64,000 bases of DNA from Flammeovirga sp. SJP92 (GTDB lineage: Bacteria; Bacteroidota; Bacteroidia; Cytophagales; Flammeovirgaceae). Below are positions 1 through 21,630 of this stretch, one piece after another. The notes under the pieces are model-generated. The model did no database searches, was not told the DNA's origin, and saw nothing but the letters and a program-made list of their open reading frames with translations. Location of the stretch: positions 192,001-256,000 of the forward strand of contig NZ_LQAQ01000099.1 of assembly GCF_001583495.1 (NCBI RefSeq), written 5' to 3'. The position numbers and the translations under genes are program-made. Numbering within the stretch: the stretch's first letter is position 1; every line of letters begins with the position of its first letter.

Positions 1-3000
1 GGTGATGAAATTGAAGTCATTGCCTCTGATATTGAGTTGTTATTAGATGGAAAGCAGAAGAAATACAGAACCTCTTGGCTTTTTGACAGTCATAAAATCA
101 ATAATACCAACCATCTTGATTATGCACTGAAAGTAAGATCTATGGTAGATACGAATGTTGAAAGTATCTTACAAGATATTAATTTAGTCGTTTTTTATCA
201 TAAGTTCATTGGGTTAGAAGAAGGGGATAGAGTAACGGAGACTTTCACACGCAAAATGATGTATGATGAATGGTTTCAAACCTCATCAGCAAATAATGAA
301 TTCAATATCAATGTAACTCCGGAAAAACTTAACATTGCATGGATTGCTAAAGAAGGGGCTACTTATTATGATTTAGAGTGGATCTTTGTAGAAAATGATA
401 GAGGCAATAGTACAACAAGCACTAATACATTATATAATTCACTTACAAAAAATCTGAGTAAGGAAAATAAAGAATTATTTGATCTAGCACATAAAGTGAA
501 AGATCCTGCAAGAGTTAGGATCATTGAAACATACTATAAATTAGGTCTGCAATTTCCTAATGGTATTTTTCTATTAAGAGTACGACCAATTACACAGTTT
601 TCTTCCAATCTGTCTCAAACGCTTGAAGGAGATTGGATATATAATAAATATGTTTATAAAGGCAACTTTGAAGCAAGTTTCAACTGGCAGAGAGTTACTT
701 CTTTTGCTGAAGAGGGAAAACATAAGACTGTAGTATCCTATATGGATGCAGTAATGAGAAGCCGCCAATCGGTTGTAAATTACCAGAATAATGACCATCA
801 ATCTACTCTAGTCAGTGAGCAGTTCTATGATTTACAGGGGCGACCGACGGTATCTACTCTTCCAGTTCCCGCAACTGATGCACTACTTACTTACAAGCAA
901 AACTTCAATCACTTTGGAAACTTAAATAATGCTTCACTTGACCATGTTTTGCATTATGAAGGGAATCTAGATCGTGTAATTACGGATGAAACGGGTGCTA
1001 AAATCTATCCTTTATCAACTTTGGATGGTGGAACTAGCAACTATTATTCACCCAATATCGATGAATATCAAAAAGGAGGATTGGATGAAGAAGTGATCAG
1101 CAGAATTCCAGATGCCGAAGGGTATGCTTATACAACCAATGAATACAGTCAGGATCATTTTGGTAGAGTAAAGAAATCCATAGGCCTTACAAAAGAAAGA
1201 ACAACTGTATCAAAATTTTATGCTAAACCAACACAAGATAAACTGAATTTATTATTTGGTCCAAATGCCGGTTATGCTTCACATTATCATAAAGAAGTAA
1301 CATCTGATCCAAATGGACAGCTGTCAGTAAATTATAGGGATCAAGGAGGCAAGGTAGTTGCCACCGCTTTGGCAGGAGGATCTCCTTCATCGGTGAGTCC
1401 ATTATTATTACAGCCTCATAATTCTATTGTTAATGATGCTGCACGTAAGTACTTGAATGTAGGTATTGAGTCAGGTGAGGAAATTAAAGTAGTCAATACC
1501 ATATTGTTGACAGAGGGCAGTGAGTTGGAGATCGATTACTCCTTTGACGAACAAGCTTTCCAAACTCTTTTAGGAGCATGTTATGAGTGTTCATATACAC
1601 TGACATTTGATTTGGTTAACCCTATTGGCAGTAAGATAGACCTTTCTCCAGAAGATTCAGAAACCTTGTCTAAGGTGATTGTGATTGATGGGCTTGGGAA
1701 TGTGAGTAATTGTAATGCTGTAAACAAAAAACAAGTTGCCGTAGCAAGACTCTCAGGGTTAAAAGAGTTGGGGGATTATGTATTGACCAAAACGCTTTCA
1801 CTGAATAATGAAAGAATTATTACGCAGATTTTAAGTGAAAATGTTGATGCTCGATTTGCAGAGATTACAGCAGATTTAAGAAATAACGTTTACAGTGATG
1901 AAATTGCAGAGGCTTTGGCCAATTGTGATGCTGCTTATGATCGGGAAATTATCACACCGCCATCTCCTGAGGATGAAAATGGTAACCTAAAGTCTTTGAG
2001 CTCAATATTAGTTTCTTATATGCAAGCCGATAATGAGGGGAACCCTTCAGTTGCTATGCAAGTGGCACAAATGCGTTATCCGGATTGTGATGCATTGGAA
2101 AGTAAAGAGGAATTGTCAAAGCCTGAACAAATCGAATACGATAAATGTTCTGATAAAAACGATAAATTATTCTTCCAGTGGTACTTTAATACAGACGATA
2201 ATGTATATCAGAGTTTTGTTTTTGATGTAGCTGTATCCCTAATTATCGAAGGAATTTCTGATGAAAATAAAGCATCTGCTTATACATCTTATGTCGATGG
2301 TATTTTGGCCAATGACCCTTATTTCAAAGCCGGAAGTGAGGGGGCGGCTAAAAAAGGTGAATTTGAAGGAAAGCTAGAAGAGATAAAGAATGATATTGCG
2401 AATAATCTTTCGGACCCTACAGTGATGTCGCCTTCAGATAGGTTGCCTTATTTCTTTGGAATGTACATCAATGAGAAAAGAAAAATTCAATTCCTGATAA
2501 AAGCAGACGACACTTCTTTACAGAGTACTGGCTTCTTAACTTCTTTTGTTGATTTTATGGGAGATGTTATGAAAGAAAGCAACACAAAAGAAGATTGGCT
2601 CAATGAAGATACCGTAGGAGGTGATGTAGATGTAGAGGGACAGGATATTTTAGGTCCTCCTTCTTCTATCAATGATGGACGTTTTGATAGAGTGCTTCTT
2701 TTGTTAGGTAACTCTTGCCTTACTGCCGCAGAGAATTATGAATCTGCAGTTTATTTTACAGCAGCAGAAGAGAAAGCAATACGTGAGGTGTTGTTTGATT
2801 ATTTTTCAGAAAACTATTCTTCAGCGGATCCTTATTTTGATCAGTTTATCGATATCGATATTCTCAAAGCCTATTTTGAGCAAAAATCAGAACTTACTTC
2901 TGTTATGGACTGCCTTTTCCCTGAACCTACAACGGATGAGGAGGGCAACCCAGTAGAGACGGAGTCGGGTTTTGAATACATTAGAAGAAACAGTTCTTTT

Positions 3001-6000
3001 GTTACAGCTGTTCCTGTACAAAGAGGAATCAATGTTGCTGCATTAAACTTCCAAGGGTTGACAGATGAGAATGATCAGTTGATCTCTCCTCATTATTATA
3101 TTCCAGATTTACCAGGCGACAGAAGTTCTGCCAAAGATTTCTCCGTAGAATTTAGGCTTTCTGTAAGTAGTACAGATACAGAGAATAGACTATTGATGAG
3201 TAACTTGAATGTGTACCCCAATAATGGTTTTGAGGTACAAATCATCAATAGGAACAATGTGAAATACCTATTGGTAAGGTTGTCAACGTATAGAGGATAT
3301 GAAATTCCATTGCAAAATTCTTCTGGCAAATGTTGGAATTATATAGGGATTTATAGGGCAGACAATAAACTGCGTGTAACTCAAAACGGTGCAAACCTAT
3401 ACGAATGTGATATCACTGATGGAGATATCAGCCTCAATTATTTTGACCGCTTATGGATTGGTGGCGGTCCAAGGTTAGGAAGCTTTGGTACTAAGCCTTT
3501 CAAAGGACTGCTTTCTGATTTATCTTTTTGGAATGCTTCTCAATTCTATTTAGAAGAAGGAGATCCTAATTATACGCTTATTGAAAAAGTAAAGAAAAAG
3601 AACTTCCAAAAGCGTATGAACGAGTATGATGGTATAAATCTCCGTTCCAAAGCACTTTTATGTTATTTCCCTTTCAACAATTATAGGTTTGATGATATTG
3701 CGAATACCAATACGGAAGCTACACGATTGGTGGCTTATGCCATACCTGATAATTTAGAAGGAGAGGAAGAAGATGGGGAAGTAGTAACAGATGTTTACCC
3801 TTATATAGGAGAAAAGGCATCTACTTGTAATGCTTCAATTGGACAGATAGGGATTTTTATTCCCTACAAAGATCCATTTACTTTTACAGTTTATGAGTAC
3901 AAAACCACGGAAGGAAGTATTTGGGACACCTCTGAGGGTACTTTCTTAGGTGACTTGATTTTTGCAAGCTTAGATCAGAAAACATTAAGAGATAATTGTA
4001 AAAAAGAAGTAGAGGACTACTTTAACGCTTTAATTGAAGATGAGGCAAAAGTATTGCTCAATGCTGAACTTAATGCTAAAATTCGTGAGGCGAAGCAAAA
4101 ATGTATCAACAATGTAGGTGAGCAACTTTATGCAACATTAGCAGAGAAAGAATATCACTACACGCTTTACTATTATGATCAGTCTGGTAACTTAATACAG
4201 ACAGTACCGCCTGAAGGGGTACACTTCTATACACTGAATACTTCTGGAAGTCCTGTAAATGCTTCTGAACCTCATACTCTTAGAACAAAATATGGATATA
4301 ACTCACTCAATCAGTTGGTATGGCAATACACGCCTGATGCCGGACTGACACGGTTTGTCTATGATCAATTAGGGAGACTGAGGTTCAGTCAGAACGCACT
4401 GCAATTGGAGGAAGGAACTTTAGCGTACAGCAAGTTTGATGAACACGGACGTGTAGTGGAAGCTGGAAAGTGGTTTACGGGTGCTCCTGCTATTGATGCA
4501 CTGACCTTGGAACAAGTACAAGACAATACAGTGCCTTCAGTGGATCTCACATCAGAGAAAATCAACACCTACTACGGAAACATAGAGGCACTGATGACAC
4601 TCCCACATGTGAACATTCCGGAAAGCTACAAAGGACAGTACCTCAAAAACAGAGTGGCTTGGGTGAAAGCAGAAGGTACTGTGGAAAACAATGAAGGAGT
4701 AAGTATTACGCTTTACGACTATGATCCGCATGGAAATGTAACCGGAATCTACCAATCCATTCCAGCTCCAGTCACTAATGGAATTACATTTAAAAGCATA
4801 GAATACCGCTATGATCTGATCAGTGGAAATGTCAATAAAGTCTATTACGAAAAAGGGACTGCAGATCAGTTTGTGCACCTCTATGAGTATGATGCAGACA
4901 ACCGCTTGAAAGAGGTGAAAACTTCTACCAACGACCTGGATTGGGTGGAAGAAGCCACTTATGTGTATTTTCCTCACGGTCCTTTGGCAGAGGTGATTTT
5001 AGGGCAGTATAATGTGCAGTCCATTGATTATTACTACACCTTGCACGGGTGGATCAAAGGGGTCAATTTAGCAGAAAAAGAGCATGATAACACCGCTTTG
5101 GCAGATGCCTTCAGTTATGGTTTGGATTATCATAATGGAGATTATAAATCCATTCAGGCATTAACGTATAAAGCGGGTTTTGAACCGACCAAGGCTTTGG
5201 CAGAGAATCAGTCTCTATACAATGGAAACATTGCTAGAATGAGAACCAATCTAGCACATATAGAAGAGGTAAACAGTGGTACACCGACGTTGTCAACGAT
5301 GAATTATCACTATGACCAACTTCATAGAATCATTAGTGCCAAGCAGGAGGGAGGGCTTCTCGCTTCAGCATATAGTTATGATGCAGTAGGAAACTTACAG
5401 ACACTTTCCCGTACGAATGGGGCAGGGGAAAAGGTACACGAACTGTCTTATTCTTATAACAAGCAAAACGGTGAATTGCAGAACAACAAGCTAAGAAAAG
5501 TAGCCAATGCAAGCACTGTTACTTCTGAGGAGTATGTATTTAAAGACCAAACCGCAGATGACAATTATATCTATGATGCCATTGGTAACTTGGTCATGGA
5601 TAAGTCGGAAAAGGTAAGAATCCATTGGAACATACAAGGAAAGGTAGATTATGTTGATCACTTTGAAAATGATATTAACCTGATCAACAATACCCACCGT
5701 ACCCAACGCGTCCGTTACCGCTATGACGCTAGTGGGAACAGAATTTCCAAGATAATCGAGAAAACAGGTGCATCTCCTCAAGAAACGCAGTATATTCGTG
5801 ATGCCAGTGGCAATACGATGGCGGTGATTGTGGATGCGTCGGTTCATGAAATCCCAATCTATGGTAGTCAGCGCCTAGGAGAATATGCCCCTATCAGTGG
5901 TGTAAATCCATGGTCATTAAGTTTGACGTATAAAAGGTATGAGTTAAGTAACCACCTTGGCAATGTATTGACGACTATTTCAGATGCTGGCAATGTTCTT

Positions 6001-7026
6001 TCTTATAGTGATTACTATCCTTTTGGTGCAAGTATAGCGGGTAGGTCTTGGAGCTTAGAGAATGGGAAGGGGTACCGTTATGGGTTCAATGGTAAGGAAA
6101 ACGATACGGATTTGAGCAGTTCTCAGCTGATTCAGGATTATGGCTTTAGGGTGTATAATCCGACGATTGGGAAGTTCTTGAGTGTGGATCCGTTGACGAA
6201 ATCCTACCCTGAGCTTACTCCTTATCAATTTGCAAGTAATAGCCCAATAGCAGGAGTTGATCTAGATGGACTCGAATTTTATTTTGCTGCTGATGGTAGC
6301 TTTATTAAAGTGGTTGGTAATAATCCATTAATTAGGGTAGTTCCTAAAGAAGATGTGAAGTTTGTTAAGCAATTGCAATCAGAAGTACTACAATTAGAGC
6401 CTATGGGTAGTAGCTTTTTGAGTCATACAAATTCTGTAAAATCAGATATTTCTAAAACTATATACACACAATTTTTAAAATTAGACTTGACTCATTTAAA
6501 AGGTAGCCAAATTGTATATGGAGAAGAAAGTGATGATGCATTAGCTTCTTATAGAGATAAAACACAAACAATACAAATATATTATGATGAACAGGATAAC
6601 ATTTATAATCTAATGGCACTTTTGTTGAAAGAAGAGACTCATACCAGAGATAGAATACTTGAAGAAACATATAATTATGTGGTTCGAGAATTAAATGGTT
6701 ATGAAAGAGTGCTAAAAAATAAAAAATTATTTTCAAAAACATCTGATGACTTTAAAAAGAAATTTCTAAGTGGTATTGGTCTTTTCATTTGGGAGGGTTG
6801 GCGAAATACCTATCTAACATATGGAGATCATCCTGGAGGAAAAATAGCTGAAGAAGGTATGTATCAACAGATCAATAAATTTAAGAATTTAGGTGTAGAG
6901 TTTGATTTTAGTACTGCAGACCGGAAATATAAAAAATGGACTGAGCATGATAAAAAAGATAATATTTCAGTTCAATTAAATAATCACGAAATAGGAATAA
7001 AATATAATGGAAAGGTTATTCAATAG
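1..7026 (+). CDS. RHS/YD-repeat polymorphic toxin-like surface protein, 5'-truncated by window edge
   Basis: The reading frame is open from base 1, so the gene starts outside the window; about 2341 residues are visible. In order they hold a long N-terminal region with cysteine-containing segments, a LamG-like jelly-roll stretch around nt 3040-3540, YD-type RHS repeats around nt 4150-5850, and the RHS-associated core near nt 5930-6270 (GFNGKEND, DYGFRVYNP, KFLSVDPL, TPYQFASNSP, DLDG). After DLDG comes a roughly 250-residue variable tail in clearly AT-richer DNA, the usual place for an exchangeable toxin domain. The tail holds KEETH (nt 6628-6642) followed by an EETYNY segment, which looks like a zincin HEExH site with the first His replaced by Lys. 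Such proteins act as contact-dependent toxins or surface glycoprotein-like shells. Family assignment is firm; toxin activity is inferred. Confidence 0.85.
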   Translation, partial: GDEIEVIASDIELLLDGKQKKYRTSWLFDSHKINNTNHLDYALKVRSMVDTNVESILQDINLVVFYHKFIGLEEGDRVTETFTRKMMYDEWFQTSSANNEFNINVTPEKLNIAWIAKEGATYYDLEWIFVENDRGNSTTSTNTLYNSLTKNLSKENKELFDLAHKVKDPARVRIIETYYKLGLQFPNGIFLLRVRPITQFSSNLSQTLEGDWIYNKYVYKGNFEASFNWQRVTSFAEEGKHKTVVSYMDAVMRSRQSVVNYQNNDHQSTLVSEQFYDLQGRPTVSTLPVPATDALLTYKQNFNHFGNLNNASLDHVLHYEGNLDRVITDETGAKIYPLSTLDGGTSNYYSPNIDEYQKGGLDEEVISRIPDAEGYAYTTNEYSQDHFGRVKKSIGLTKERTTVSKFYAKPTQDKLNLLFGPNAGYASHYHKEVTSDPNGQLSVNYRDQGGKVVATALAGGSPSSVSPLLLQPHNSIVNDAARKYLNVGIESGEEIKVVNTILLTEGSELEIDYSFDEQAFQTLLGACYECSYTLTFDLVNPIGSKIDLSPEDSETLSKVIVIDGLGNVSNCNAVNKKQVAVARLSGLKELGDYVLTKTLSLNNERIITQILSENVDARFAEITADLRNNVYSDEIAEALANCDAAYDREIITPPSPEDENGNLKSLSSILVSYMQADNEGNPSVAMQVAQMRYPDCDALESKEELSKPEQIEYDKCSDKNDKLFFQWYFNTDDNVYQSFVFDVAVSLIIEGISDENKASAYTSYVDGILANDPYFKAGSEGAAKKGEFEGKLEEIKNDIANNLSDPTVMSPSDRLPYFFGMYINEKRKIQFLIKADDTSLQSTGFLTSFVDFMGDVMKESNTKEDWLNEDTVGGDVDVEGQDILGPPSSINDGRFDRVLLLLGNSCLTAAENYESAVYFTAAEEKAIREVLFDYFSENYSSADPYFDQFIDIDILKAYFEQKSELTSVMDCLFPEPTTDEEGNPVETESGFEYIRRNSSFVTAVPVQRGINVAALNFQGLTDENDQLISPHYYIPDLPGDRSSAKDFSVEFRLSVSSTDTENRLLMSNLNVYPNNGFEVQIINRNNVKYLLVRLSTYRGYEIPLQNSSGKCWNYIGIYRADNKLRVTQNGANLYECDITDGDISLNYFDRLWIGGGPRLGSFGTKPFKGLLSDLSFWNASQFYLEEGDPNYTLIEKVKKKNFQKRMNEYDGINLRSKALLCYFPFNNYRFDDIANTNTEATRLVAYAIPDNLEGEEEDGEVVTDVYPYIGEKASTCNASIGQIGIFIPYKDPFTFTVYEYKTTEGSIWDTSEGTFLGDLIFASLDQKTLRDNCKKEVEDYFNALIEDEAKVLLNAELNAKIREAKQKCINNVGEQLYATLAEKEYHYTLYYYDQSGNLIQTVPPEGVHFYTLNTSGSPVNASEPHTLRTKYGYNSLNQLVWQYTPDAGLTRFVYDQLGRLRFSQNALQLEEGTLAYSKFDEHGRVVEAGKWFTGAPAIDALTLEQVQDNTVPSVDLTSEKINTYYGNIEALMTLPHVNIPESYKGQYLKNRVAWVKAEGTVENNEGVSITLYDYDPHGNVTGIYQSIPAPVTNGITFKSIEYRYDLISGNVNKVYYEKGTADQFVHLYEYDADNRLKEVKTSTNDLDWVEEATYVYFPHGPLAEVILGQYNVQSIDYYYTLHGWIKGVNLAEKEHDNTALADAFSYGLDYHNGDYKSIQALTYKAGFEPTKALAENQSLYNGNIARMRTNLAHIEEVNSGTPTLSTMNYHYDQLHRIISAKQEGGLLASAYSYDAVGNLQTLSRTNGAGEKVHELSYSYNKQNGELQNNKLRKVANASTVTSEEYVFKDQTADDNYIYDAIGNLVMDKSEKVRIHWNIQGKVDYVDHFENDINLINNTHRTQRVRYRYDASGNRISKIIEKTGASPQETQYIRDASGNTMAVIVDASVHEIPIYGSQRLGEYAPISGVNPWSLSLTYKRYELSNHLGNVLTTISDAGNVLSYSDYYPFGASIAGRSWSLENGKGYRYGFNGKENDTDLSSSQLIQDYGFRVYNPTIGKFLSVDPLTKSYPELTPYQFASNSPIAGVDLDGLEFYFAADGSFIKVVGNNPLIRVVPKEDVKFVKQLQSEVLQLEPMGSSFLSHTNSVKSDISKTIYTQFLKLDLTHLKGSQIVYGEESDDALASYRDKTQTIQIYYDEQDNIYNLMALLLKEETHTRDRILEETYNYVVRELNGYERVLKNKKLFSKTSDDFKKKFLSGIGLFIWEGWRNTYLTYGDHPGGKIAEEGMYQQINKFKNLGVEFDFSTADRKYKKWTEHDKKDNISVQLNNHEIGIKYNGKVIQ

Positions 7027-7497: not shown

Positions 7498-7782
7498 CCC
7501 CCCACTGTTCGTAGTGTTCAACGATAGTATCACTACGAAATCTCCCCCCCTCACTGTTCGTAATGTTAAGCGCTAGCGTCATTACGAACTATATAATTGA
7601 TTAAGTTTCCGAACTTAAAACAAAAAAACACAAGCCAATCTACCCTCACGTAGATTGGCTTGTTTGTATATTACAATCACTATTAATAAGCTAGTATTCC
7701 GAATAAAATCAGATCATTTTGCCGTTATTATGCATTGAAGCAATGCAAGTGCTAGGACTTGCATAGTGTACGTAGTAGCATG
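7498..7782. repeat. Structured repeat block, copy 1
   Basis: About 285 bp that recurs at 7899-8201 with few differences. It contains, in order, a hairpin with stem TTCGTAGTG/CACTACGAA, a second with stem GTTCGTAATG/CATTACGAAC around a TTAAGC...GCGT loop, a small AAGTT-TCCG-AACTT hairpin, a perfect 13-bp terminator-like hairpin (7630-7663), and a GCAAGT...ACTTGC hairpin near 7747. It begins 9 nt after the stop of the candidate immunity gene. No coding potential is visible. Confidence 0.85.
7630..7666 (+). terminator. Terminator-like hairpin in repeat copy 1
   Basis: A perfect 13-bp stem (ACAAGCCAATCTA with TAGATTGGCTTGT) around an 8-nt loop CCCTCACG, followed by TTTG. It lies 140 nt after the lipoprotein gene and could end the toxin-immunity transcript. 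The identical hairpin occurs in copy 2. Confidence 0.6.
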
Positions 7783-7898: not shown

Positions 7899-8201
7899 CC
7901 CCCACTGTTCGTAGTGTTCAACGATAGTATCACTACGAAATTTCCCCCCTCACTGCTCGTAATGTTAAGCCTTCAGGCGTCATTACGAACTATATCATTG
8001 TTTAAGTTTCCGAACTTAAAACAAAAAAACACAAGCCAATCTACCCTCACGTAGATTGGCTTGTTTGTATATTACAATCACCATTAAAATGTGATTTGAA
8101 ATAAGCCAGTATTCCGAATAAAATCAGATCATTTTGCCGTTATTATGCATTGAAAGCAATGCAAGTGCTAGGACTTACATCGTGTACATAGTAGGATGTA
8201 C
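7899..8201. repeat. Structured repeat block, copy 2
   Basis: Near-identical copy of the block at 7498-7782. The second hairpin has a changed apex (GCC-TTCA-GGC instead of GC-GCTA-GC) that still pairs. A short insertion (AATGTGATTTGAAAT) after the terminator-like hairpin at 8031-8064 distinguishes it from copy 1. No gene lies between the two copies, so a module may have been lost there. Confidence 0.85.
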
Positions 8202-8327: not shown

Positions 8328-8510
8328 ATGGCGCAAGTGTTAGGCTTATACTTGTATCTAACAGTCGGAAAAGTCTCCAGACTTCCGAGTCAACAGAGCC
8401 AAAAACATTCACAATGGAATTACAAAATCCATAAATCCTTTTATCAATAACTATTGACCGTTAATTTGTGGATTGGGGAGTCAACAGACTCCTTCCAAAT
8501 ATAGATAATC
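8328..8510 (+). mobile_element. 220-bp inverted-repeat element, copy A (right end decayed)
   Basis: Starts TGGCGCAAGTGTTAGGC and shares the internal hairpins of the family (AGTCTCCAGACTTCC; GGAGTCAACAGACTCC). The right terminal repeat is degenerate. It lies immediately upstream of, and in the same orientation as, the gene at 8532. See the complete copy at 9245-9465 for the family description. Confidence 0.7.
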
Positions 8511-9244: not shown

Positions 9245-9465
9245 CTGGCGCAAGTGTTAAGCCGACAGGCGTCACTTGTGTCTAATAATCGGATAAGTCT
9301 CCAGACTTCCGAGTCAACAGAACCAAAAAATATTCATGATGTAACTACCTATTCCATAAACCCTTTCATCCATAAATATTGACTATTAATTTGTGGAGTA
9401 GGGAGTCAACAGACTCCTTCCAAATATAGACACAAGTGACGCCTCCGGCTTAACACTTGCGCCAG
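9245..9465 (+). mobile_element. 220-bp inverted-repeat element, copy B (complete)
   Basis: A 221-bp element with about 38-bp terminal inverted repeats: left begins CTGGCGCAAGTGTTAAGCC, right ends GGCTTAACACTTGCGCCAG. Each terminal repeat is itself a nested hairpin (outer GCGCAAGTG with CACTTGTGT, inner GCC/GGC). Inside are a bulged AAGTCT/AGACTT hairpin and GGAGTC-AACA-GACTCC. It codes for nothing. This is MITE- or REPIN-like architecture. The gene at 9530 begins 65 nt downstream; the gap 9168-9529 holds only this element and the direct repeat. Confidence 0.8.
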
Positions 9466-10273: not shown

Positions 10274-10450
10274 TCACCCCAAAATATCGACTTCCAAAAG
10301 ATTAAATTTCATTCCATGATAGTTAGAAGCACTAGAGTAGAAGTAATCCACGGCATCTTTTACTATACCAGCTTTGATAGGATTATCATGTGTATATTCT
10401 AACCTTTGTTGTCATTGTTCAGGAGTATCTAAAAGAACAATGAGAAACTT
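10274..10450 (-). pseudogene. C-terminal remnant of an IS200-like / REP-associated tyrosine transposase
   Basis: On the minus strand one frame reads LDTPEQ-stop-QQRLEYTHDNP, then IKAGIVKDAVDYFYSSA and NYHGMKFNLLEVDILG, then stop. The NPIKAGIV...YxYSSAxxYxG...LLEV pattern is the hallmark C-terminus of Y1 transposases of the RAYT type (REP-associated tyrosine transposases). The in-frame TGA sits where a Trp is usual in EQWQQ-like contexts. The catalytic His-x-His and Tyr parts are absent, and the fragment ends ten bases from a large palindrome. It is dead, but it shows that a transposase of the class that mobilises palindromic repeats was once here. Confidence 0.75.
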
Positions 10451-10459
10451 GTATTGTAT

Positions 10460-10546
10460 GTACACTATTCACCGTACACACCGTACGCTGTATAGTGTAC
10501 ATACAGTACGGTGAATAGCGTACGGTGTGTACGGTGGATAGTGTAC
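10460..10546. repeat. Long palindrome, about 30-bp arms
   Basis: Arms 10460-10489 and 10517-10546 pair over 30 bp with one wobble; the inner 20 bases of the left arm are CACCGTACACACCGTACGCT. A small CTGTAT/ATACAG hairpin lies in the loop. It abuts the transposase remnant. The strong GTAC repetition resembles 7760-7860. Termination looks unlikely because no T-run follows. Confidence 0.8.
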
Positions 10547-10731
10547 GGATAGTTCAAGCTGAACAATTACTTATTCAGTTACACTATTTCTTTTATCCAA
10601 ATTCTTGATGATTAACTCTTTCAGTTTCGACAACAAAATCTAGAACACCTACCCATAAACCTATGACTTCAATCATGGTAATAATCCGGTAAATTCTAGC
10701 TCAAAACTTGCACCAATAGATTCTTATTTTA
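10547..10731. other. Gene-poor gap before the duplicated operon
   Basis: Holds only a short minus-strand frame (10593-10676, 27 codons, MIEVIGLWVGVLDFVVETE...). It reads like coding sequence but is too short and isolated to call a gene. It may be another remnant. Confidence 0.3.
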
Positions 10732-11799
10732 TTATTCAATCTCCGGTAGAAATTCCTGCAATTGATGTTCTTGTACTGTGCTTCCCATAGCGGTTTGAAG
10801 TCTGCGATTGACAGTATAAAACCTTAAAAAGTTTTCCCTTGATTCATCTTCATACATCACTTGATGTAGCACTTCATCGGTCAGTTGGTTATTCACAAAA
10901 TATTCTCCTTCATTACTATCTCTATGGTAATAGGTTATTCCATTGATCGTTAAGCTAGGTTGAATGTCTACAAGCTCATCATCAAAAGAATATAATTCAA
11001 GATCATAGATATAAGAGACATTTTTTTCTTTGATGAATAATTGATCTGTCAGAGAAGGTTGGTAGTACAAAAAGAGGTTGTCGTCCATTTTGAAGCGGTA
11101 AGAAGAAAGACCGTTGATCCAATCTATTTGTTCATCGTCACTGATATAGTAATCGTTGCCAAGGACTGTAATTACCCCGTTTCTGCGGATATCCTCCACC
11201 TCTTGATCAAAAATCTTGAAGTACTCTCTTTTTCTTTTGGGTTGCACCTTTTCTTCTAGCTCAACAGCTCCAATAAGCCCTGCTGTATGAATATTATAAT
11301 AGTCATGAATTGCTTTAATGACGTCGTGATATTCTGGAAGTTTCTCCTTATCTCCTAACATAATGGGATACTTGAACCTTTCCCTATTGCTTTCAATGAT
11401 AAAGTAAAGGCAAAATGAATTTCCTTCCTCTTCAAGTACAAACAGCTGTTCTAGTTCATTTGGATAAAAGACCACTTTAAAGTCGTAATTGAACAGTTTG
11501 CTTTTGACAATGATGTTCTGACTCGAAATAGCAATTGTAACCAATGCTGTCTTTCGTGAAAGTGAGGTGTACTTATAAATGGGATAAGCGATGATGGCAA
11601 CAACGCCTAATATAAAAGCGGGCAGTCCGATGAGAAGTGTGAAAGGAAGAAAAATCACTGCACCAAAAAGAATACTCAAATCATTTTCGAGGTAAAGAGA
11701 TATGTTTTGCTTCAGTCCTTCTAATATAAGTTTCTTGGAAAGAAAACTTTTGAGTGATATGATAAATCCATCACTTCTTCGTGTTTCAAAAATATTCAT
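10732..11799 (-). CDS. Unknown membrane-anchored protein, type B, copy 1 of a duplicated pair
   Basis: 355 residues. After about 30 residues beginning MNIFETRR come two close membrane helices (roughly 45-80). Two beta-rich soluble parts follow: a PH-like middle (about 85-175) and, after a basic KRKREYF motif near 190, a C-terminal part built around LGNDYYI, DWINGLSSYRF and YYHR. The last part weakly resembles DUF4178 domains. The very end, EHQLQEFLPE, is shared with the paralogue at 12808-13881. It follows the type A gene by 2 nt, so the pair is translationally coupled and the products probably work together at the membrane. Function unknown. Confidence 0.7.
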   Translation of the reverse strand: MNIFETRRSDGFIISLKSFLSKKLILEGLKQNISLYLENDLSILFGAVIFLPFTLLIGLPAFILGVVAIIAYPIYKYTSLSRKTALVTIAISSQNIIVKSKLFNYDFKVVFYPNELEQLFVLEEEGNSFCLYFIIESNRERFKYPIMLGDKEKLPEYHDVIKAIHDYYNIHTAGLIGAVELEEKVQPKRKREYFKIFDQEVEDIRRNGVITVLGNDYYISDDEQIDWINGLSSYRFKMDDNLFLYYQPSLTDQLFIKEKNVSYIYDLELYSFDDELVDIQPSLTINGITYYHRDSNEGEYFVNNQLTDEVLHQVMYEDESRENFLRFYTVNRRLQTAMGSTVQEHQLQEFLPEIE

Positions 11800-11801
11800 A
11801 T

Positions 11802-12773
11802 TTAATAACTTATACCTTTAGAAATTTCAAGATTGATCTTAGAAAAAAGACAGATTCTAATCGTTTTGGAATGATGCTCACTAGGGGAAAGGTACATCTT
11901 TTGATCTGCATGGACTTTATTTTTCTCGGCATGTTTATTAAAGAAAAGCCCACTCTTATCTTGCTCTAATCGATAATGATCTCCCTCTAGCGTAAAGCTG
12001 TATGGCAATTGGTCAAAACGAGTATTGTGGTCCATGTCAATTTTATTGAAAAACAATACCTTATTTAATTTTTCTTCGATGTGAGTATCCAAATTACTTT
12101 GGTAAACGGTATTCAATTGCTTACCATCATGAACCCAGTAGACATGATCAATTTCACCATCATTCCATTCAAACTGAAATTCATTTTCTATCAATCCTTC
12201 TATCAAAGGAGTAGAAAAAATGTCCCCTTTCGGTTGAATATCCGCTAGTTGCCTTTCCTGAAGTTCTTTCTTTTGGTGTCCTGCAACTTGGTATTCACCT
12301 TCCACATAATAGTCTTCAATTCCTAAAAACTTTTCTAATGTGTTCTCAATTTCTAAAGCTTTTTTAGGGTGAAGGTGGTTCCCTCGAAAACAATCTATTT
12401 CAGAATCCTCAATGGTTTTCAAAAAGACATTAATACCCGAAGAACTAGAAGTATGTTTTAAATAAAATTGAGCGATTCTAGAAGTAGGAATTGAATACCT
12501 TGACTCTTCATTATAAATCCATAATTCTTCTCCCGTACATATTAAATTTGATGAACCATAATTCAGATATTGAATATATAGAGCAATTGCAAATAAAATT
12601 GATGAAATAATTATCCATGCAGAAAACGTAAAAGGGAAAATTCCTGAGAAAAAAAGCTGAATAATAAAAACACTTGGGAAGACCAATAATGTTTGAAGTG
12701 CAATTTTCTTTAAGTATTCCTGCCCCCAATTTATTTTGATAATTACTTGTTGGTTGTCTTTAATAATTTTCAT
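11802..12773 (-). CDS. Unknown membrane-anchored protein, type A, copy 1 of a duplicated pair
   Basis: 323 residues. Two membrane helices occupy about residues 25-70. A PH-like beta domain follows, with CTGEELWIYNEESRYSIPT, then the shared motif GIEDYYVEGEYQVAGHQK near 150. A C-terminal beta domain with FEWNDGEIDHVYWV and LPYSFTLEGDHYRLEQ weakly recalls DUF4178. The paralogue at 13885-14871 aligns along its whole length. It is the first gene of the downstream A-B pair, 34 nt after the upstream pair, so all four genes are probably one operon read from 14871 down. Function unknown. Confidence 0.7.
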   Translation of the reverse strand: MKIIKDNQQVIIKINWGQEYLKKIALQTLLVFPSVFIIQLFFSGIFPFTFSAWIIISSILFAIALYIQYLNYGSSNLICTGEELWIYNEESRYSIPTSRIAQFYLKHTSSSSGINVFLKTIEDSEIDCFRGNHLHPKKALEIENTLEKFLGIEDYYVEGEYQVAGHQKKELQERQLADIQPKGDIFSTPLIEGLIENEFQFEWNDGEIDHVYWVHDGKQLNTVYQSNLDTHIEEKLNKVLFFNKIDMDHNTRFDQLPYSFTLEGDHYRLEQDKSGLFFNKHAEKNKVHADQKMYLSPSEHHSKTIRICLFSKINLEISKGISY

Positions 12774-12807
12774 CTATTGGTTTAATTATTTAATCAAAAT
12801 AATAATT

Positions 12808-13881
12808 CTAATTCCATTCTTCTGTTTCAGGCAAAATCTCCTGCAATTGATGCTCTTCAACAATTTCCCCTAGCATTGCTTTGGTATCACCGTCCAATAC
12901 AAAGATTCTTAAGAATCGTTGCTTTTCTTTATTTTCATAAAGGAGTTGAAGAACATGGTCATGAAGGAGTGTTTTACCCTCAAAAAGTTTTCCTTTGTTT
13001 TGTTCTGTTTGGTAGAAATTGGTTCCCTTATGATAGAGTATTTTATCCAATCCCTCAAGCTCTGTCTGACAGGGGTTCAATCCAATAGCATTTATGTCAG
13101 TCATTTCTTTTTCTAGAAATAAAAGTCGCTCTGCAGGAGAAGAATGATAAAATAGTGCCTCTTCAGTTTCAAGCGTAAATTGATAAGAGACCATGCCATT
13201 TTTCCAATCCAGTTGATTTATTTTAGTGATATGATGATCATTTCCTTTCAAATGAATGACACTGTTTAATCGAATATCATTGATATCTTGATGGAAAAGA
13301 TTAAAGTACTGCCTTTTCCTTTTAGGTAATTCAAGTTTCTCATAATTGAATTCACCTTCTAGCTCATCTTCTTGGATATCAAAGTAGTTATGGATTTTAT
13401 TTTTCAAATCGACTAGTTCTGCAAGTTTATCTTCATTTCCAGTGATTAAAGCAATTTGCTGTCTAATCGGGTGTTTTATTATCAGACATAGACAATACTT
13501 GTTCTGTTCTATTTTTCTGATGTAAAGTTGTTCTATATTATTGGAGTCAAAATGTTTAAAGAAGTGAGACTTGTTAATATGGACATTTATAGCAAAACTA
13601 CCCTCAAAGATATTTACTTTAATAGTTTCTTCTTTCTTTTTAATGTAAAGACGATTTCCAAAATAATAAGAAATTAAAGAGATTGGAATAAAGGAAAATA
13701 ATATAGGGTGTATTAGTACTACCGGAAAGATCATTAAAAGCATAAGTATTAAAAAAGAAGAGTTTTCATCTCTATTTTCCTCTTCCTTCAATCTCTTTTT
13801 ATATTCATCTTGTAATGTTTTAGAAAGTTTACCTTTTAAAGTAAAAAGATACCCACCATTTCTAGTTTCAATAATATTCAT
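12808..13881 (-). CDS. Unknown membrane-anchored protein, type B, copy 2
   Basis: 357 residues, paralogue of 10732-11799. It shares the start (MNIIETR), two membrane helices (about 43-80), the basic motif KRKRQYFNLF, LKGNDHHITKINQLDWKNG, and the tail EEHQLQEILPETE. The copies are clearly diverged, which argues for an old duplication kept by selection. It begins 3 nt after the stop of the type A gene upstream. Confidence 0.7.
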   Translation of the reverse strand: MNIIETRNGGYLFTLKGKLSKTLQDEYKKRLKEEENRDENSSFLILMLLMIFPVVLIHPILFSFIPISLISYYFGNRLYIKKKEETIKVNIFEGSFAINVHINKSHFFKHFDSNNIEQLYIRKIEQNKYCLCLIIKHPIRQQIALITGNEDKLAELVDLKNKIHNYFDIQEDELEGEFNYEKLELPKRKRQYFNLFHQDINDIRLNSVIHLKGNDHHITKINQLDWKNGMVSYQFTLETEEALFYHSSPAERLLFLEKEMTDINAIGLNPCQTELEGLDKILYHKGTNFYQTEQNKGKLFEGKTLLHDHVLQLLYENKEKQRFLRIFVLDGDTKAMLGEIVEEHQLQEILPETEEWN

Positions 13882-13884
13882 TGC

Positions 13885-14871
13885 TTAGCTTTTAGAAATT
13901 TCAATAGTAAGATCAGCATAAAGTACAATCCTGAAGAGCTGTTTATTCTGAAGGTTTTGATACAGTTTTTGTTGCACAGGAATCTCTTTCTTTTCAGCGT
14001 AACTACTTAAGAAACGCCCAGAATTTTCTTCAATCAGCTCAAACAGCTCGTCTTTATAATGAAAAATGTGAGGCAGTTCTTCCCACGAAATAGTGTTTGC
14101 CAGGCCAATCTCTCTAAAAAATAAAGTGGTATTGACCTTAAATTCTTTATGGTACAATTCTTCCTTTTTATAAAGAATAGAAAGTGTTTCTCCTGTTTCT
14201 ACCCAAAACATTTGATCAGGTGAACTATGGTCCCAGTTATATTGAAACTTTTTGAGAATAATCCCTTCTTCTGTACCAAAGGAAAGTATTTGACCAACAC
14301 TTTCACCTTTAGGAAGATCGCTTTCAATTAAACTTTCTTTTTGATGTCCCTTCACTTGGTATTCCCCTTCCACATAATAATCTTCTATTCCCAAAAATTG
14401 CTGAAGGCTATCTTCTAGTTCCCTTCCGTCCATTGCGGGAAGCCCTTTTCCATTGAAACAATCATATTCTTGACTGTCTTTAGTGAGCAACATCAAATCT
14501 ACTTTTGCCTGATCTGAATTTCTCGTTTTAGCGGAATTATACTTTAAATAAAACTGAGCAATTTGTTGAGTGGGTATTCTAAATTCCTCTTTGCCATTTT
14601 GAATATACAATTCCTCATTGGTGCATCGTATTTTTGATTTACTTTTTGATAAATAAAGAATGGCTGAGGAGCCAAAATACAATAGTGACGGAATACCAAA
14701 AAAAGTAAAACCCTTGATCCAGGTTTCAAAAATGGGGTAAGGAATAGCCGTCAAACTGATGATGGTTCCAATCCCCAAAAGAGGTAAAGTCTTTTTGAGA
14801 ATAGAAGTAAGATGTTTTCTACCCCAATTGATGGTTGCGGATAACTCTAGTCTGCTTAAGCTTAGTTTCAT
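13885..14871 (-). CDS. Unknown membrane-anchored protein, type A, copy 2; first gene of the operon
   Basis: 328 residues, paralogue of 11802-12773. It shares paired N-terminal helices (about 27-75), the PH-like segment with CTNEELYIQNGKEEFRIPT, the motif GIEDYYVEGEYQVKGHQK, and a C-terminal beta domain ending in a DLTIEISKS-type strand. As the most upstream of four co-directional genes it should lie next to the operon promoter, somewhere in 14872-14940. Confidence 0.7.
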   Translation of the reverse strand: MKLSLSRLELSATINWGRKHLTSILKKTLPLLGIGTIISLTAIPYPIFETWIKGFTFFGIPSLLYFGSSAILYLSKSKSKIRCTNEELYIQNGKEEFRIPTQQIAQFYLKYNSAKTRNSDQAKVDLMLLTKDSQEYDCFNGKGLPAMDGRELEDSLQQFLGIEDYYVEGEYQVKGHQKESLIESDLPKGESVGQILSFGTEEGIILKKFQYNWDHSSPDQMFWVETGETLSILYKKEELYHKEFKVNTTLFFREIGLANTISWEELPHIFHYKDELFELIEENSGRFLSSYAEKKEIPVQQKLYQNLQNKQLFRIVLYADLTIEISKS

Positions 14872-14942
14872 TGAAATCGTTTATTTTATATACACCATTT
14901 GCTCTTTTTAAAGATACAATTTTTTAATTACAGCTAGCAAGA

Positions 14943-15150
14943 ATGTAAACTAAGTTTATGAATATTTAAAGTGCATATAAATCAGGTGTTTTCTGCCATT
15001 TATAAGGCATGAATATTACTATCGCTGATGAGCTTTTTACTTGTTTCGTTTTGATGTAAAGACAAAGTTGAAGAAGAAGGAATCTTGGAAGTAGACCCAA
15101 AAAAGTCTTATGGAAAGATTGATTAAAAGTTGACAATAGTTTAGCTAACA
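14943..15150. repeat. Degenerate inverted-repeat element, second family, copy 1
   Basis: Ends carry TGTAAACTAAG on the left and an imperfect TAGTTTAGCTAACA on the right. The interior shares scattered blocks with the copy at 15415-15553 (AGACAA..., GAAAG..GATTGA, AACAATGTATT). It looks like a decayed MITE-type family unrelated to the 220-bp element. The gap 14872-15682 holds nothing else that I can support. Confidence 0.4.
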
Positions 15151-15414
15151 ATGTATTCTAAACTAACCATTATTATCTTGAATAGAATCTATTTTACTTT
15201 TTCAATACGAGTCACTATAACATTATGCAGAATAAAACAGATAAATGTACAATGGACAAAGTATGGAAATGCTGTAAAACTAATGGTGGAAATTTTTAAA
15301 TAGGTGGAAAAATTTAAAATCACCCTCAGATATGGCGTTTCTAATACTGCACTATTATGACATTGATTGATTTTACTTTTAAATCGATATACCTTCATTC
15401 CAATAATTTAGTGC

Positions 15415-18633: not shown

Positions 18634-18853
18634 CTGGCGCAAGTGTTAAGCCGATAGGCGTCACTTGTGCCTAACAATCGGAAAAGTCTCCAGACTTCCG
18701 AGTCAACAGATCAAAAAATATTCATGATAGAATTACAAATTATATAAATCCTTTTATCAAAGAATATTGACCATTAATTTGTGGAGAGGAGAGTCAATAT
18801 ACTCTTTAAAGATATAGGCATAAGTAATATCTCCGGCTTAACACTTATGCTAG
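18634..18853 (+). mobile_element. 220-bp inverted-repeat element, copy C
   Basis: Begins CTGGCGCAAGTGTTAAGCC; the right end is partly decayed (CTCCGGCTTAACACTTATGC). It lies between the glycoside hydrolase terminator and the gene at 18877, in the same orientation as that gene and 23 nt before its ATG. Confidence 0.8.
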
Positions 18854-18876
18854 CTGGGGGGATAAAAAATAAAATA

Positions 18877-19530
18877 ATGAAGTATTATAAAGGTATTAAT
18901 GATGCTGAATATGGGTTTCAGGCACAAGTAGACTTTGGTGATGAAAAACTACTAAAAAAAGATATATATAAGGAAGTAGAATTTAGTTTCATAGATAGTA
19001 TTAACTATGTAAAAACAAAAGTCAAAACAGATGTTTTAGATATTGGTAGCTTGAGTTTTCATGGTTTACTGGTTAGTGAAAAATTCTATTCTATTTGTGA
19101 AAGGTTTGATTCTCATCAGGTTCAATTTGTAGACATCATTGGAGATGAAAATTTAAAAGGATATAAATTTATGTTCTTCAATGGGGATTTGACCACAAAA
19201 ATCGATTATAGAAAAACAAATTTCATTTTATGCGAAAACATGTTAGATGAGTTTGAAGTGTTAAATGAAAATTTAGAACCAAGTAGAAAAAACATGATAA
19301 ATATTGACAAAGAAATATGTAGTGTAGATATATTCAAACAGTTAATACCTAAAAATGGCTTTTCCTTTATTGAAGGTTTTGATATCAATAAGTATAATAT
19401 TTTTAGGATAGGACATTTTGATGAACATTTTTATTTTTCTGAAAAAGTAGTTAAAGCTCTAAAAGCTGAAAATATAACAGGTATTACATTTGTAGAATCA
19501 GTTAATTTTTCTCCTTTCACTCACTGTTAA
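18877..19530 (+). CDS. Imm11/DUF1629-like orphan immunity protein
   Basis: 217 residues from the ATG at 18877 (MKYYKGINDAEYGF). A longer frame starting at 18781 exists, but its first 32 codons are read through the right arm of a repeat element, so the internal start is preferred. The layout fits the Imm11/Imm43 (DUF1629) group: HGLLVSEKFYSICERF, then HQVQFVDI, a KTNFILCENM strand region, and the C-terminal FRIGHFDEHFYFSEKVVKAL...ITGITF that matches the usual end (SexLxxALxxxxxTGxxF). No toxin gene is adjacent, so it is an orphan, probably protecting against toxins of neighbouring strains. Family by pattern recognition only. Confidence 0.6.
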   Translation: MKYYKGINDAEYGFQAQVDFGDEKLLKKDIYKEVEFSFIDSINYVKTKVKTDVLDIGSLSFHGLLVSEKFYSICERFDSHQVQFVDIIGDENLKGYKFMFFNGDLTTKIDYRKTNFILCENMLDEFEVLNENLEPSRKNMINIDKEICSVDIFKQLIPKNGFSFIEGFDINKYNIFRIGHFDEHFYFSEKVVKALKAENITGITFVESVNFSPFTHC

Positions 19531-19673: not shown

Positions 19674-19890
19674 TTGGCGCAAGTGTTAAGCCGATAGGCG
19701 TCACTTGTGTCTAACAATCGGAAAAGTCTCCCGACTTCCGAATCAACATAACGCAGGAACAGATAATTTAGAATAATCAAATTTTACAAATCTTTTCCCT
19801 TGTAAACCTAATGTTTTGTGGGGTAGGGAGTCTACAGACTCCTTCAAAATATAGACACAAGTGACGCCTCTGGCTTAACACTTGCGCCAG
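19674..19890 (+). mobile_element. 220-bp inverted-repeat element, copy D
   Basis: Both terminal repeats are well preserved (TGGCGCAAGTGTTAAGCC; GGCTTAACACTTGCGCCAG). The middle differs from copies B and C and matches copy E (TTTTCCCTTGTAAACCTAATG), so there are two subfamilies. It lies between convergent genes 18877-19530 and 19923-20411. Confidence 0.8.
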
Positions 19891-19922
19891 GGGGCGGTAC
19901 TTGTAGTTCGCACTCCAAATTA

Positions 19923-21426: not shown

Positions 21427-21609
21427 ACTCTAACAATCGGAAAAGTCTCCCGACTTCCTAGTTTACATAACGAAGGAACAGATATGATGGGAAGTTCAAA
21501 TTTTCTAAACCTTTTCCCTTGTAAACCTAATGGCTTGTGAGGTAGGGAGTCAACAGACTCCTTCAAAATATAGACACAAGTGACGCCTCCGGCTTAACAC
21601 TTGCGCCAG
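21427..21609 (+). mobile_element. 220-bp inverted-repeat element, copy E (left end lost)
   Basis: Lacks the left terminal repeat but keeps the internal hairpins and a perfect right end (GGCTTAACACTTGCGCCAG). It matches the subfamily of copy D. It is the last copy in the window. Confidence 0.75.
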
Positions 21610-21630
21610 TGGATTTAACACATGTATCAC

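Follow-up and report, generated by a model that had tools for sequence, protein, structure and literature searches.

The stretch of DNA analysed here, called the window throughout, comprises 64,000 nucleotides (nt) of the marine bacterium Flammeovirga sp. SJP92, whose 8.49-Mb genome is labelled G000. At positions 10732-14871, it carries a cassette of four genes, all on the minus strand and in the order A1-B1-A2-B2, which encode two types of predicted membrane proteins, A and B. The gap between A1 and B1 is 3 nt, that between B1 and A2 is 34 nt, and that between A2 and B2 is 2 nt. A first-pass annotation had described four co-directional genes in A-B-A-B order with these gaps, and the coordinates confirm the description. 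The features of the cassette are listed below, with the strands, helices, and domains of A1 and B1 placed according to predicted models.

14872-15266, no strand assigned: 5' flank of A1, upstream of the cassette on the cassette strand
13885-14871, minus strand: A1, 328 amino acids (aa), with strands at 2-5 and 9-15, a hydrophobic hairpin of helices at 45-57 and 61-76, the PH remainder at 78-160, and a DUF4178-like part at 195-327
12808-13881, minus strand: B1, 357 aa, with strands at 2-5 and 11-19, helices at 43-57 and 61-78, the PH remainder at 85-167, and a DUF4178-like part at 207-351
11802-12773, minus strand: A2, 323 aa, the second A-type protein
10732-11799, minus strand: B2, 355 aa, the second B-type protein

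The models of A1 and B1 were each built from six-row alignments. The predicted local distance difference test (pLDDT) gave 64.1 for A1 and 69.1 for B1, with predicted template modelling scores (pTM) of 0.56 and 0.45, respectively. Both models consist of two strands, a helical hairpin, the remaining PH fold closed by a helix, and then a beta-rich domain. In A1 and B1 alike, the PH fold is predicted to be interrupted after strand 2 by a hairpin of two helices (a split-PH fold) and to be joined to a DUF4178 domain. By Kyte-Doolittle hydropathy, each of the four proteins has a hydrophobic region, which is divided into separate segments in A1 and B2 and forms a single merged segment in A2 and B1. 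The hydrophobic anchor, PH-like domain, and DUF4178 look that had been proposed for both types were borne out by the predicted models, hydropathy, and profile comparison taken together.

Within each type, A1 and A2 share 36% identity over 331 columns and B1 and B2 32% over 358 columns. A1 and B1 match weakly by BLASTP (E 4e-4), and the A and B profiles match clearly (hhalign E 1.6e-11). In trees, the 8 A rows and the 8 B rows form one clade each. Two motifs had been reported as fixed in both types; the motifs are real, but each is restricted to one type. EDYYVEGEYQV, which closes the PH half, occurs in both window A proteins and in no window B protein, while EHQLQE(F/I)LPE occurs in both window B proteins and in no window A protein, reading EHQLQEILPE near the C-terminal end of B1. 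The latter corresponds to the end of DUF4178, where the solo DUF4178 proteins terminate in SNILP/SNITP forms. The terminal ILP/FLP motif is present in 8 of 8 B proteins and in none of the 8 A proteins.

A third type, C, consists of single proteins of about 365 aa. One copy is found in the window genome (locus L026), one in G006 (L024), and a shortened one in G010 (L025). A tandem array of five complete C genes plus fragments, adjoining a YhcG-type nuclease gene, lies in G004 (L023 6963-13958). In profile comparison, C matches A at E 1e-24 and B at E 6e-19, in each case more closely than A matches B. This fits an origin of A and B from a C-like protein, and we take both to descend from a single C-like ancestor. 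Two further, more diverged side-by-side pairs occur in the window genome (L094) and in G005 (L108); their partners sit on long branches, so that an A-like or B-like assignment is not readable from them.

PH-half relatives and DUF4178-half relatives also exist as separate genes. Nine solo N-half proteins and six solo DUF4178 proteins, chosen with the analysis's own profiles, provided an N-half and a C-half profile, and 60 column-shuffled controls each were run for A and B only. Compared as groups with the nine solos, the N-halves scored 93.0 (A), 57.4 (B), and 278.6 (C), with shuffle maxima of 37.8 for A and 25.2 for B. The C-halves scored 36.5 (A, probability 72%), 58.1 (B, 96%), and 111.8 (C) against the six solos, the shuffles reaching at most 20.9 and 23.2 for A and B. 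All six solo DUF4178 proteins lie above the Pfam PF13785 gathering cut-off of 25 bits, at 62-93 bits. By profile kinship, all three types (A, B, and C) thus have a C-terminal half related to DUF4178 (PF13785), A differing in that it lacks the C-terminal ILP motif. The window proteins themselves do not reach the 25-bit cut-off (A2 13.5 and B2 13.2 bits, A1 and B1 not being listed). The solo DUF4178 proteins are about 185 aa long, whereas the window genes carry DUF4178 as the C-half of a fusion. Scored one by one, A proteins reach 12.5-40.5 bits and B proteins 1.7-15.8 bits with the solo N profile, and -1.4 to 29.7 and 8.8-28.5 bits, respectively, with the solo DUF4178 profile. As groups, A appears nearer to the ancestral split-PH half and B to DUF4178, of which B appears to retain the ancestral C-terminal motif that A proteins lack, although individual A and B proteins overlap in score.

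Some more distant candidates were encountered as well. In L113 and L114, the N-half domain follows a zinc-ribbon-like front end of the form CxxC...CxxC. The L113 protein, a distant N-half relative, also gives a sub-threshold match to the YqeB-like bPH_10 family (PF23494; E 1.6e-4; 21.6 bits, with the cut-off at 27), which is not among the 19 families matched at E up to 10 by any of the 20 scanned members. A 371-aa protein of G561 (L112) had looked by eye like a split-PH/DUF4178 fusion but is not counted as one, its C-half falling under the best shuffles and having no Pfam match.

The distribution of the genes was followed in 9 Flammeovirga genomes (G000 and G003-G010), in a family set of 18 genomes, and in wider sets. 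The A1 query matches 9 of the 18 family genomes, all of them Flammeovirga. Eight intact A-B pairs are present in 7 of the 9 genus genomes, two in G000 and one each in G003, G005, G006, G007, G009, and G010, the doubled pair being confined to the window genome. Each of the 8 intact A genes has a B gene directly downstream, with a gap of at most 10 nt or an overlap of at most 11 nt, and this neighbourhood analysis upholds A-B as a conserved two-gene unit. No A-B pair is found in G004. Flammeovirga sp. OC4 (G008) retains an in-frame remnant (L017 7559-8299), a single open reading frame in which A 1-190 runs directly into the last part of B; judged by window coordinates, the deletion that produced it removed about 1.3 kb. 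The earlier view that A and B belong together, outside any characterised family, held in part: the two clades were never found apart, but C-type proteins stand alone, and DUF4178 is already described, though functionally uncharacterised.

Beyond the genus, the full-length profile matches at least 68 of 390 genomes of the order, with at most 5 candidates scored per genome. Among the places listed outside Flammeovirga, only those of G104 cover most of the model, and the others cover one half, either a solo N-half or DUF4178. Fused relatives above the DUF4178 Pfam cut-off number two in G004 and three in G104, Pfam thereby confirming the three G104 fusions. The N-half profile matches at least 11 of 296 genomes of the phylum, the window genome included, with at most 10 candidates scored per genome. 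One N-half relative, at 31% identity, resides on a Vibrio megaplasmid. A literature search, which left subscription journals mostly outside, found no description of a split-PH/DUF4178 fusion or of the A-B pair.

The pair is found at different genomic sites. In G003, G005, G006, G007, and G010, the pair lies between chorismate-binding-enzyme and citrate-transporter-type genes, on one flank or the other of a TauE gene in those genomes that have it, a site with no pair in G000, G004, G008, and G009. The window genome, G008, and G009 use the site on the aspS side, which is without a pair in G003, G004, G005, G006, G007, and G010. In G004, aspS is 100% identical to that of the window and the gene for a 949-aa secreted carbohydrate-binding protein is 99% identical; homology is lost at 15267, just upstream of A1, the G004 DNA matching the window from there rightward and not within 14872-15266. 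In Flammeovirga sp. EKP202 (G009, L016) and OC4 (L017), the match in the A1 5' flank stops at about 14926. The pair is a mobile accessory cassette at shifting genomic positions that are empty in relatives. A Bacteroidota-type promoter pattern had no site close to A1; it matched twice, where 4.7 matches were expected.

Constraint on the genes was measured as the ratio of nonsynonymous to synonymous substitution rates (dN/dS), the synonymous distances being high or saturated in several of the comparisons. Between the window and G009, A1 is 85% identical (dN/dS 0.12) and B1 71% (0.20), values which indicate that these orthologues are more than chance open reading frames; five aspS-side neighbours are 87-99.5% identical (dN/dS 0.01-0.09), and three genes of the other site 87-91%. 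Between G010 and G006, A shares 49% and B 45% identity, as against 82-87% for four neighbours. In the comparison of G005 with G007, A (91%) and B (92%) fall inside the range of four neighbours (88.5-96%), with dN/dS of 0.19 and 0.10, as against 0.04-0.08. The A-B genes are constrained, and they evolve faster than their neighbours in most but not all comparisons.

A retained pairwise duplication had been read into the double cassette, and the trees do not support a fresh one. B2 groups with the B protein of G003 (99/97), and a clade of B1, B2, and the G009 B protein is rejected by two approximately unbiased (AU) tests (p 0.00136 and 0.00117). Recent tandem duplication of the first pair was therefore discarded. 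A2 leans to A1 in the joint tree (81/77), and a grouping of A2 with the A protein of G003 is not rejected (AU p 0.068 and 0.213), so that the A tree alone does not decide. Since B2 is sister to the G003 B protein, an old origin or import of the second pair is more likely than recent copying.

Fold comparison provides a lead to function. With Foldseek, the clearest matches of the models are PH domains, such as that of SSRP1 (5umr, probability 1.00, 87 columns). The 1000 best Foldseek chains were re-aligned with VIA-align, which handled 985-986 of them and barely probes the DUF4178 half. For A1, aligned after trimming low-confidence stretches, EROS chain 8kei_D ranked first with Z 11.8 and a root mean square deviation (rmsd) of 3.9 over 120 residues, the next chain having Z 9.3. 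The same chain came first for B1 (Z 10.4, rmsd 2.6, 101 residues), where the next value of 10.0 amounts to a tie with other PH/PTB folds. EROS is a human membrane-protein chaperone with a PH domain whose strands 1-2 precede and strands 3-8 follow two membrane helices; according to the available text, helices placed within a PH domain would, if confirmed, be a feature unseen in known structures, and a similar organisation is predicted for PIGH (eLife 2022, PMC9767466). Two papers term EROS an orthologue of the plant protein Ycf4 (PMC5379978; PMC13296129). The likeness of A1 and B1 to EROS (CYBC1, PF15169) lies in the PH fold with a hairpin after strand 2, in models of moderate confidence. Unlike the window proteins, EROS lacks a DUF4178 half in its resolved chain, is not encoded as a bacterial two-gene pair, and has a known client, NOX2. 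At the sequence level, one C relative, out of 20 members scanned, gives a sub-threshold match to Cybc1_Eros (PF15169) in register (E 0.038; 14.3 bits, with the cut-off at 27). The full profile found a single chance-level match to a solved structure (E 3.9), and the N-half profile found none.

The favoured explanation, to which we assign a probability of about 40%, is that A-B is a heteromeric factor that assembles or stabilises membrane proteins at the cytoplasmic face. DUF4178 has been described in a CesT/Tir-PspA operon that also encodes DUF350, a lipoprotein, and a spermidine-synthase-like protein bound to the membrane (PMC11237479). A solo DUF4178 gene of the window genome (L091) is one gene away from a polyamine aminopropyltransferase (spermidine-synthase) gene, and one in L109 is located near DUF350. 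The DUF4178 operon context and the EROS-like plan point to membrane-protein help from the cytoplasmic face by a heteromer, and the modelled fold likeness combined with DUF4178 suggests a two-part helper. Each gene would give rise to a membrane protein with a split-PH N-half carrying the hairpin and a DUF4178 C-half, and we infer an orientation in which the soluble domains face the cytoplasm. A and B, which are encoded as a coupled pair, would most probably associate at the inner membrane as a hetero-oligomer. This complex might bind a client membrane protein or a membrane patch from the cytoplasmic face, probably as EROS and Ycf4 do, and binding could aid the assembly or stability of the client under envelope stress in a chaperone-like manner.

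Several points count against such a helper. The models are moderate, and the A1 hairpin is of low confidence, with pLDDT near 40. The best Foldseek E value is 1.5e-3, all being above 0.001, and unrelated DDB1 and lectin chains are intermixed with the PH domains. The hhalign score of the N-half against the single EROS sequence was equalled by 26 of 200 local shuffles, which gives no sequence-profile support for homology to EROS; the score against the single Ycf4 sequence, equalled by 4 of 200 shuffles, is marginal. A common fold demonstrates no function. The division of labour between A and B is uneven protein by protein, A2 (12.5 bits) falling below B1 (15.8) on the N profile. No neighbour names a client, since relatives of spermidine synthase (SpeE) or DUF350 are absent at E <0.5 from the window and the 11 loci L016-L026, and the two PspA genes of the window genome are on other contigs, C15 and C18. 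No neighbours typical of the PspA-polyamine operon stand beside the window pair, PspA having not been sought beside the pairs of other genomes. Patchy presence and divergence suit a role in conflict at least as well.

Such a role is the main rival explanation, according to which the pair shields its own cell from membrane-directed attack, for instance by phages, bacteriocins, or delivered toxins, in the way of the PH-domain pairs YdbS/YdbT and DdE/DdF. We consider it somewhat unlikely, though ahead of the other rivals. The region of the window contains genes of polymorphic-toxin type, as judged from two neighbours.

37-7026: RHS-repeat protein, 2329 aa (RHS_repeat 31.4 bits, above the cut-off)
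18781-19530: Imm11-like protein (21.1 bits against a cut-off of 22.1)

These two genes favour protection, but the association with the cassette, which had been described as adjoining a toxin locus, is not conserved. Between B2 and the RHS gene lie 3.7 kb containing repeats, and a tblastn search with the window RHS protein of 16-18 kb around the pairs of six other genomes, in which other kinds of toxin were not sought, revealed no relative; the best match (E 0.028) was in a gene scanned as PAS/GAF (L018). A conserved link to the RHS locus was rejected on this neighbourhood evidence. The patchy, array-forming history of the family suggests a changing client or attacker, and in this respect the accessory position with its several empty sites, the five-gene C array of G004, and the strong divergence of the G010 and G006 pairs amid conserved neighbours all agree with protection. 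The mean dN/dS, well below 1, and the G005 and G007 proteins, which diverge no more than their neighbours, argue against it. Two-gene PH pairs with a bacteriocin role have been published, and they resemble A-B in that neighbouring genes read in one direction encode PH-fold proteins anchored in the membrane (PMC8657885). The partners there are unequal in size, whereas A and B are nearly equal, and no DUF4178 half is mentioned in the available part of that paper (PMC8657885). By analogy, pairs of the YdbS/YdbT type offer a working precedent for membrane units made by two genes. The Pfam scans listed no bPH_2 match, HMMER being able to overlook distant relatives, and membership of a PADLOC defence system was excluded, no model matching at E up to 1 for six proteins, namely the four of the window, a solo N-half, and a C protein.

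In a second rival reading, the pair would sense envelope stress, either facing the lipids or through a link to polyamines, and would be related to the module of PspA, DUF4178, DUF350, and spermidine synthase, from which it has become detached. The DUF4178 kinship would be explained in this way, as would the context of the solo DUF4178 genes in the window genome, in L109, and in the published operon (PMC11237479). This proposal appears unlikely to us, since the partners of the module are missing around the pairs, as described above, PspA is encoded elsewhere in the window genome, and solo N-half genes did not stand beside solo DUF4178 genes in 20 neighbourhoods.

The surroundings of the cassette are rich in repeats. 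Copies of a dispersed intergenic repeat of about 150-220 bp occur at 8350-8504, 9275-9429, 18663-18817, 19710-19893, and 21429-21612 of the window; perfect terminal inverted repeats of 18 nt bound the copy at 19675-19889, and L151, L016, and L017 contain several copies as well. The repeat looks like a miniature inverted-repeat transposable element (MITE) and is located between gene cassettes of the variable region. Just downstream of B2, at 10448-10558, lies a nested imperfect GTAC-rich palindrome with arms of 53 nt that are 79% complementary. A short open stretch at 10275-10387 on the minus strand reads DNPIKAGIVKDAVDYFYSSASNYHG; it looks similar to the last part of a REP-associated tyrosine transposase and is probably a remnant. 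Behind the RHS gene, a 111-nt direct repeat, 97% identical, occupies 7576-7686 and 7977-8087.

The least probable of the rivals holds that the genes are under weak constraint and play no important part, persisting through duplication and drift as passengers of a variable island: it would suit the dispersed repeats, the strong divergence, the lack of a pair in G004, and the deletion remnant in G008, but purifying selection (dN/dS 0.12 for A1, 0.20 for B1, and, between G005 and G007, 0.19 for A and 0.10 for B) and the intact state of both partners in 7 of 9 genomes oppose it.

Relative to the split-PH and DUF4178 proteins described so far, the cassette is a new variant architecture. If the models are right, the split-PH plan also exists in Bacteroidota and is joined there to DUF4178. 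It is conceivable, although we regard it as rather doubtful, that these proteins, in their solo, CxxC-fused, and DUF4178-fused forms, are the bacterial counterpart of the split-PH helpers EROS, Ycf4, and PIGH, which in Flammeovirga would have become an obligate, fast-evolving pair that escorts or shields varied clients, the double cassette serving two of them. Should the models be right, the pair, which can be expressed and tested, would offer a bacterial handle on split-PH membrane helpers and on the role of DUF4178.

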